Source: Haloprofundus halophilus
Lineage (GTDB): Archaea; Halobacteriota; Halobacteria; Halobacteriales; Haloferacaceae
DNA length: 64,000 nt
Reading direction: 5' to 3'
Assembly: GCF_003439925.1 (NCBI RefSeq)
Contig: NZ_QQRR01000001.1
Coordinates: 496,001-560,000, forward strand
This document shows, one piece after another, positions 41,824 through 50,596 of this stretch (the first letter of the stretch is position 1; each line of letters opens with the position of its first letter). Both the position numbers and the translations under genes were made by a program. Under the pieces are notes generated by a model, which worked only from the letters and a program-made list of their open reading frames with translations, was not told where the DNA came from and did no database searches.

Positions 41824-42222
41824 TTATCGCCGCCCGTAGCCCCACTCTTCCATCACGTCGACGACGTCGCCGACGTTCCTGAGCCCGGCCGTGACGACCG
41901 CTTCGCGCACGTCCAGCGACATCACGTCGTCGCCGTCGAATCGGTCGGCGAGTTCGCGTTCGAGCGCGTCGAGCCGTTCGGCGGTCGTCGGTCGGACGTA
42001 GACGGGGAGCGCGTCGCGGTCGGCTTTCACCGTTCGACGGGCGAAGATGAACGGCAGTTCGACGGCGTCCGAACCGGCCGACGCGTCGGCTCGGTCGGCA
42101 GCGGACTCGGCTTCGGCGTCCGGCTCTCCGTCGGGCGTCGACGTTTCGGCACCGTTCTCGACGTTCGCCGGGACGTCGCCGTAGGTGTCGCCCGCGGCGC
42201 CGTACCGGTCGTCTTTGGTCAT
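41824..42222 (-). CDS. ParA-partner protein (small acidic, C-terminal helical)
   Basis: A 132-residue protein with an acidic disordered first 60 residues and a structured C-terminal 70 (LPFIFARRTVKADRDALPVYVRPTT, ERLDALERELADRF, VMSLDVREAVVTAGLRNVGDVVDVMEEWGY). It overlaps the parA stop by 4 nt (ATGA), the usual partner position for a ParB-like or adaptor protein. No ParB, HTH or CopG signature is visible. The N-terminal acidic tail and basic FARRTVKADR segment could contact ParA and DNA. Function is inferred from position. Confidence 0.6.
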   Translation of the reverse strand: MTKDDRYGAAGDTYGDVPANVENGAETSTPDGEPDAEAESAADRADASAGSDAVELPFIFARRTVKADRDALPVYVRPTTAERLDALERELADRFDGDDVMSLDVREAVVTAGLRNVGDVVDVMEEWGYGRR

Positions 42223-43064
42223 TGCGCCACCTCCACGTCGAGCGCCGCCTCGACGCTCCCGCGTTCGACGATGCGGGCGACGGTGTCGAACTGGTCGAGC
42301 AGGTCCTCCTCGTACGGACGGAGGTCTCTGGTCTCGGCGCTGTCGGCGAACTCGAAGACGCTCATGTGGTTGCGCCACGCCTCCTTCAGCACGTCGCGCT
42401 TGCGGACGCCGAACGGCGTCACCGGCTTGCCGTCGGTCTCCAGTTCCTCGCGGACCTCCCGGTAGATGTTGGAGTCGCCGACCTCGTTGGGGACGACCGC
42501 GAGGATACCGAGCGCGAACGCGTCGTCGAACGTCCGGAACCCGCGTTCCATGCTGTCGAGCGTATCCTCCAGACCGTCGATGGAGACGCTTCCCTTCCGC
42601 GTGAGCTCGATGGGGATGACCACGTCTCGCGCGGCGACGAGCGCGTTGTCGACGAGGACGTTCAGCGTCGCCGGGGGGTCGACGAGGAAGTAGTCGTACT
42701 CGCCCGCCAGCGGCGACAGCGACGAGCGCAACTGGAACTCGCGCAGCGAGGTGTTGCGCGCGGCCATCTCGCTCTCGATGTTCGCCAACCCCTCGTGAGA
42801 CGGAATCAGGTCGAAGTCACCCGCGTCGACGACGAGCTCGGACGCGTCGCGTTCCTGGTCGAGGAGAACGTCGCCGAGGTGGTCGTCGTCGGTCGTCTTC
42901 AGGTCGCCGAAGCCGACGTGATCTGTCAAGCTACCGAGTTGCGGGTCCAAATCGACGACGAGGACGTCCGCATCCCGCCGCCCGAGCGCGGCCGCCGTGT
43001 TCGTCGCCATCGTCGTCTTCCCGACGCCGCCGGATTCGCTCCACATCGTCACTGCCCGTTTCAT
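42219..43064 (-). CDS. ParA-family ATPase of SojC type
   Basis: A 281-residue ParA/MinD ATPase. The P-loop is WSESGGVGKTT (P-loop Lys16) but the signature lysine preceding GG in most ParA proteins is Ser11. Switch I (VDLDPQLGSLTDH) and switch II (FLVDPPATLNVLVDNAL) are intact. Haloarchaeal plasmid and virus ParA proteins of this subgroup also show S-E-x-G-G. It likely partitions DNA or positions a large complex with the downstream partner. A phased 12-bp repeat array lies about 95-155 nt upstream of its start. Start ATG 43064 is preferred over 43091. Confidence 0.82.
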   Translation of the reverse strand: MKRAVTMWSESGGVGKTTMATNTAAALGRRDADVLVVDLDPQLGSLTDHVGFGDLKTTDDDHLGDVLLDQERDASELVVDAGDFDLIPSHEGLANIESEMAARNTSLREFQLRSSLSPLAGEYDYFLVDPPATLNVLVDNALVAARDVVIPIELTRKGSVSIDGLEDTLDSMERGFRTFDDAFALGILAVVPNEVGDSNIYREVREELETDGKPVTPFGVRKRDVLKEAWRNHMSVFEFADSAETRDLRPYEEDLLDQFDTVARIVERGSVEAALDVEVAQ

Positions 43065-43437
43065 GGCCTGCGCTTTCGCAGAGCCGTACATAAATCTCCG
43101 TCAGACAATCGCGCCGTCGAAACCCGCTGGATAGCTCCGCTCATACCTTCTTAGACATATATCTGGAAATATGTCTGGAAATCAATCCGGGTAGATTTCC
43201 AGATATCTGTGTGGAAATTCGATAGACGGCGTCCCCGCCTCAGGTGACCCTTCCTCTCGGAGGCCGGACGCTGTTTCTGCTCGGAAGGGGATTCGTCCTC
43301 GTGTCGACCGTCGTCGATTTGCTTTCACGGCGTTCGGCCGTCTGTGTAGCCGGTGAGCATTTCCTCGTACGCCGGCTCCGCCGTCGTTCTACCGGCGCTT
43401 CGAAAACAGTTATTCTGGCGGCGTCTCGATTCGCCCC
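43065..43437. other. Upstream region of parA; no gene
   Basis: The 373-nt gap between parA and the small membrane gene holds the 12-bp repeat array (43159-43218), AT-rich flanks and two divergent promoters. A TATA-like TTTATGTAC lies on the minus strand at about 43086-43094, close to the parA start. ACAGTTATTC at about 43406-43415 serves the plus-strand gene. No further gene is supported. Confidence 0.6.
43159..43218. repeat. 12-bp phased repeat array upstream of parA
   Basis: Five consecutive 12-nt slots: ATATCTGGAAAT (43159-43170), ATGTCTGGAAAT (43171-43182), a non-repeat 12-nt spacer (43183-43194), the exact reverse complement ATTTCCAGATAT (43195-43206) and a 10/12 match CTGTGTGGAAAT (43207-43218). 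The array could bind ParA, its partner or a repressor, acting as a parS-like site or operator. Confidence 0.75.
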
Positions 43438-50448: not shown

Positions 50449-50495
50449 TAGCTATCCGTATAGATAGCCGGATAGATACCCAGATAGCTATTCGA
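50449..50495. repeat. Short inverted and 12-bp direct repeats
   Basis: TAGCTATC at 50449-50456 is inverted as GATAGCTA at 50483-50490. Between them, units starting ATAG recur every 12 nt at 50460, 50472 and 50484. The stretch lies downstream of the EamA gene and before the convergent RNA-binding protein gene, where a hairpin terminator or protein-binding site would fit. Confidence 0.55.
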
Positions 50496-50596
50496 ATTGC
50501 CGTCGGGGAACGCGGACCGATGAGGTCCCGGCGGAGTCGACCAACGCCGTCGAAAAGTGCCGTGTGGACGAGGGGTGAGCGTCGCGCTCGTCTCGG

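Follow-up and report, generated by a model that had tools for sequence, protein, structure and literature searches.

Introduction

The described system nearest to the locus analyzed here is SegAB of the Sulfolobales, in which a ParA-type ATPase (SegA) is combined with a ribbon-helix-helix protein (SegB). The Walker A motif of ParA-type ATPases is usually of the deviant form KGGVGKT, with a signature lysine, and the repeats known from type Ib partition systems are shorter than 12 bp. The site recognized by SegB is a single 13-bp motif, TCTAGA-S-TCTAGA, with 46 sites of which about 84% lie inside genes; SegB binds dispersed sites and has been reported to organize and compact DNA (PMC12284271). 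Reviews of the field name no haloarchaeal chromosome segregation system (PMC5120986; PMC7617429), and we found no published description of haloarchaeal sites of the kind reported below in the open-licence literature.

The DNA analyzed here, a stretch of 64 kb (hereafter, the window), is haloarchaeal and belongs to the genus Haloprofundus. It contains the features of a type I partition locus: a Soj-like Walker ATPase whose gene shares an operon with a small second gene, and repeated candidate sites near this operon.

Results

The Repeat Array and Its Unit

Six consecutive 12-bp palindromic units (43147..43218, no strand assigned) make up the parA-proximal array, a candidate centromere/parS site located 83-154 bp upstream of parA. 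In order, the units are CTTCTTAGACAT (43147-43158), ATATCTGGAAAT (43159-43170), ATGTCTGGAAAT (43171-43182), CAATCCGGGTAG (43183-43194), ATTTCCAGATAT (43195-43206, an exact inverse), and CTGTGTGGAAAT (43207-43218). The original prediction had described five 12-nt slots at 43159-43218, and both their sequence and their coordinates were confirmed; the extent of the array had been underestimated, as a sixth, weak slot precedes them. The third of the five slots lies where it had been placed, but instead of being a spacer it is a weak copy of the unit. Tandem and inverse copies are indeed present; since the consensus unit, MTWTCYRGAWAK (163 units from 47 arrays), is itself palindromic, there is no difference between “direct” and “inverted” copies, and this distinction was abandoned. 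The matrix used for collecting the 163 units was symmetrized, which biases the collection to palindromes; the unsymmetrized starting set was already symmetric, and the units of the window genome alone already gave a symmetric matrix.

When two mismatches are allowed, the 12-mer is present three times in the 64 kb, each time within the parA-proximal array, while the mean over 100 shuffles of the window was 0.25 occurrences and three were never reached. The exact composite array is found only once in the 3.47-Mb genome, across which 12-mers with a single mismatch are scarce and dispersed. In contrast to the exact composite, degenerate phased arrays of the MTWTCYRGAWAK-type unit are present elsewhere in the genome.

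The Operon

The parA gene (42219..43064, minus strand) encodes a ParA/Soj-type ATPase of 281 aa that has no N-terminal HTH and carries the Walker A motif SGGVGKT. Its product matched AAA_31 (1.2e-30) and Soj structures (down to 1.9e-19). The signature lysine is missing from the ParA of both the chromosomal type (SGGVGKT) and the plasmid type (AGGVGKT) at every locus at which the motif was read, L022 being left out because its automated reading was erroneous. A TATA-like box, TTTATGT (43088..43094, minus strand), lies 24-30 nt upstream of the start codon, and parA is probably leaderless. Beside this box, between the array and parA, the element GTCTGACG (43099..43106, minus strand) is located at -42. 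Each of the 11 chromosomal-type parA genes, like most of the plasmid ones, is preceded by this element at a near-fixed distance of -42 to -45; the element was not found before the parA genes of pNRC200 and pHME132. Both the 12-bp and the 13-bp systems (see below) possess it, at -42 to -48, with one copy at -65 in which the last base is changed (L008-L023, L031, L013-L018, L130-L132).

The partner gene (41824..42222, minus strand), which overlaps the parA stop codon by ATGA, encodes a protein of 132 aa that we propose as the array-binding protein. Its N-terminal half is acidic, probably disordered, and begins with a conserved MTKDDRYG; besides this start, the C-terminal domain is strongly conserved among the orthologs. 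No match to the partner was obtained in Pfam, NCBIfam, PHROG, or the PDB sequences (the latter searched with two profiles), and no ParB domain was detected in it with Pfam and NCBIfam. The C-terminal domain was modeled as strand-helix-helix-helix with a pLDDT of 82, and this predicted order of elements is that of ribbon-helix-helix proteins. Foldseek returned no match for the domain model, and a single weak VIA row was obtained (Z 2.8, rmsd 4.5, 46 aligned); we therefore make no claim of a ribbon-helix-helix fold. Matches of the whole-partner model to UBA-like helical domains were discarded as not meaningful, the model being poor (pLDDT 59).

Conservation and Distribution

All five Haloprofundus genomes examined contain orthologs, as do three Halogranum, two Halegenticoccus, one Halobium, and one Haladaptatus strain. 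At each of the 11 orthologous loci where parA is adjacent, 12 bp was the best repeat lag in the 300 bp upstream of this gene; measured against dinucleotide shuffles, the summed z was 14.4. This phase has been kept while the array sequences themselves have diverged.

Arrays are present in 12 of the 170 genomes of the family, 10 with many matches and two with one or two. All 10 many-match genomes encode the partner, so that arrays occur in 10/11 genomes with the partner vs. 2/159 without it (1-2 matches each); the corresponding Fisher p of 1.7e-13 overstates the evidence, because related genomes are not independent. Halobium salinum (L032, L110) has kept the partner, but the 2.5 kb upstream of this gene contain no parA, and there are no arrays above noise in the genome. 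The system is patchy: as the partner was found in only 11/170 genomes, it does not qualify as a segregation system of haloarchaea in general.

The dispersed arrays were first detected with a degenerate two-unit pattern run over the genome, and a 36-bp profile, R1, was then built from five dispersed arrays and nine parA arrays. Applied to 24 genomes, R1 gave 7-16 matches in those with the parA-partner pair and 0-2 weak matches in those without it. The chromosome of the window genome carries five array sites in addition to the parA-proximal one, and one of them is inside the window: CTATCCGTATAG ATAGCCGGATAG ATACCCAGATAG CTATTCGAATTG (50452..50499, no strand assigned), flanked by the convergent 3′ ends of genes for an EamA transporter and an RNA_binding family protein and positionally conserved in genomes G001-G004. 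As to gene context, convergent ends flank two of the five dispersed arrays and tandem genes another two; the remaining array is between divergent genes. The arrays were intergenic where examined and contain 3-6 units each. Two further candidates were set aside: the phased-looking match C1:935722, recovered by neither R1 nor a second profile, R2, and the one-mismatch pair C1:1186733/1186753, whose members are separated by 20 bp of AT-rich DNA, are out of phase, and were found by neither profile; this pair was ascribed to chance.

Wherever one of the five dispersed sites was found in another Haloprofundus species, it is flanked by the same genes as in the window genome; the G003 site missed by R1 was recovered by R2, in the predicted spacer. 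Several sites are in place, or nearly so, in Halegenticoccus and Halogranum as well. Some of the cross-genus sites are near the same genes, on the opposite side of one gene (L090, L100, and L102 vs. L033), as if they had moved locally. Conservation was 0.58 in the arrays vs. 0.44 in the flanking spacers.

The six arrays are spread over ~0.6 Mb of the arc that separates two conserved cdc6 genes, without being placed at either of these; the cdc6 nearest to the parA array is about 195 kb away. On three single-contig chromosomes, all R1 sites fell within 29% of the half-chromosome around parA, a clustering with p of about 0.002-0.006 per chromosome, the three chromosomes not being independent of one another. 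In four genomes, the outermost array on one side is 20-33 kb from a conserved cdc6 (G000 C1:704241, G001 C1:1719203, G003 C1:1857974, and G004 C1:399259).

The original prediction had named random placement without conserved synteny as its refutation, and the opposite was found: the phase is conserved before orthologous parA genes with an adjacent partner, the sites are positionally orthologous, and they co-occur with the gene pair. The further copies for which a search had been proposed turned out to be not exact composites but the degenerate phased arrays at the five other chromosomal sites and related arrays on megaplasmids.

Megaplasmid Relatives

The closest plasmid relatives of the partner are encoded on three Haladaptataceae megaplasmids, where the 12-bp TCYRGA motif is present, dense at parA. 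A larger plasmid family, which includes pNRC200 and Haloferax mediterranei pHME132, carries 13-bp TGTTCA arrays, and 13 was the best lag at 19/19 plasmid-type loci tested. The 13-bp arrays before the megaplasmid parA genes consist mostly of TGTTCA units, often in two or three blocks (L013-L018, L025, L111-L129, L133, L134). The type of array thus follows the partner clade, which suggests that it is the partner that reads the DNA; this argument is not exclusive, since the ParA sequence differs between the two groups as well.

Discussion

Our analysis makes it likely that a chromosomal partition system of the ParA type uses the array upstream of parA as its operon-proximal, parS-like centromere and that the partner binds all six arrays. 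We infer that binding of the partner activates ParA and serves chromosome segregation. Partner dimers would occupy the parA-proximal array and the five dispersed arrays, one dimer per 12-bp palindromic unit; the DNA-bound partner would stimulate the ATPase of ParA, perhaps via the N-terminal MTKDDRYG, and the marked chromosomal arc would be moved or spread on the ParA-coated nucleoid, as in other ParA systems. Possibly, the parA-proximal array also autoregulates the operon. Counted against the partition reading were the polyploidy of haloarchaea, with regard to the need for active partition, the patchy distribution of the system, the failure of the partner model to match a solved structure, and the placement of the arrays between two cdc6 genes instead of at one.

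The arrays could instead be operators of a transcription regulon, with the partner or a different regulator in control of parA and the neighboring genes. This would fit an array just upstream of the parA promoter and another, at +46 kb, between divergent genes, and autoregulation of partition operons is common. We nevertheless regard a regulon as improbable: two of the five dispersed arrays are between convergent 3′ ends, no common theme connects the EamA transporter, SRAP, MutS-like, inositol phosphatase, and GMC oxidoreductase neighbors, the arrays are grouped around parA, and there are none where parA is missing (Halobium). Little probability is likewise given to the arrays marking or organizing a chromosomal domain, in a MatP/matS-like or SegB compartment role, without moving DNA. 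The restriction of all sites to one ~0.6-Mb arc between two conserved cdc6 genes accords with such a role, as does the case of SegB, which binds dispersed sites and has also been reported to organize and compact DNA (PMC12284271); the operon, however, includes a ParA ATPase, and the megaplasmid relatives place their arrays densely at parA, as partition predicts. Domain marking is, moreover, compatible with partition, so that these two readings are not exclusive.

The original prediction had proposed partition sites or replication-control operators, and it is the partition side that gained the better support. Replication control typically uses phased iterons, and the megaplasmid relatives are within a few kb of cdc6 genes; these points were counted in favor of replication-control iterons or of a functionless relic of an integrated megaplasmid. 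Both possibilities appear very remote for the chromosomal arrays. An iteron of a replication origin was ranked low because of the absence of a nearby cdc6 gene (the nearest is ~195 kb off), and the location of some arrays between convergent 3′ ends likewise favors a partition site over it; a relic is opposed by the six arrays having been kept in place across species and conserved above their spacers.

We are inclined to regard the partition system proposed here as an undescribed archaeal system, with a new family of centromere-binding proteins and a lysine-less ParA, distributed over megaplasmids and chromosomes, in which about six conserved arrays define a segregation domain on a polyploid chromosome. 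The close relatives on the Haladaptataceae megaplasmids suggest that it shares its origin with megaplasmid partition systems, and a single partition family would here serve megaplasmids as well as chromosomes. The question addressed is that of active chromosome segregation in polyploid haloarchaea, for which six predicted sites per chromosome and named genes are now available; the sister plasmid systems add a second specificity, which makes binding, specificity, and segregation directly testable.

Comparison With Known Systems

The locus resembles SegAB in that parA overlaps a small gene behind it, which encodes the proposed site binder, and in having a site before the operon together with dispersed chromosomal sites with a TCTAGA-like core (PMC12284271). 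Unlike in SegAB, 3-6 units, each a TCYRGA-centered palindrome, are repeated in tandem every 12 bp, at about six sites that are intergenic where examined; homology of the partner to SegB was not detected (no PDB sequence match with two profiles). A Soj-like ATPase and a few dispersed sites in one part of the chromosome are shared with bacterial ParABS (Soj/Spo0J-parS), whereas the partner is not of the ParB type (no Pfam match), tandem 12-bp palindromes take the place of a single parS, and the cluster of sites is not evidently an origin-located one.

Type Ib plasmid partition systems (ParFGH, delta-omega) likewise combine a short, HTH-less ParA with a small partner gene and phased repeats upstream of the operon; unlike them, the present system is chromosomal, with dispersed arrays, a 12-bp palindromic unit, and a partner without detectable sequence relation to theirs. 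With pNRC200 and pHME132, the locus has in common a homologous ParA, the C-terminal domain of the partner, the gene order, the gene overlap, and the upstream phased array. These two systems differ from it in being plasmid-borne, in their 13-bp TGTTCA instead of 12-bp TCYRGA units, and in their partners, which are 31-40% identical to that of the chromosomal system in the conserved domain.
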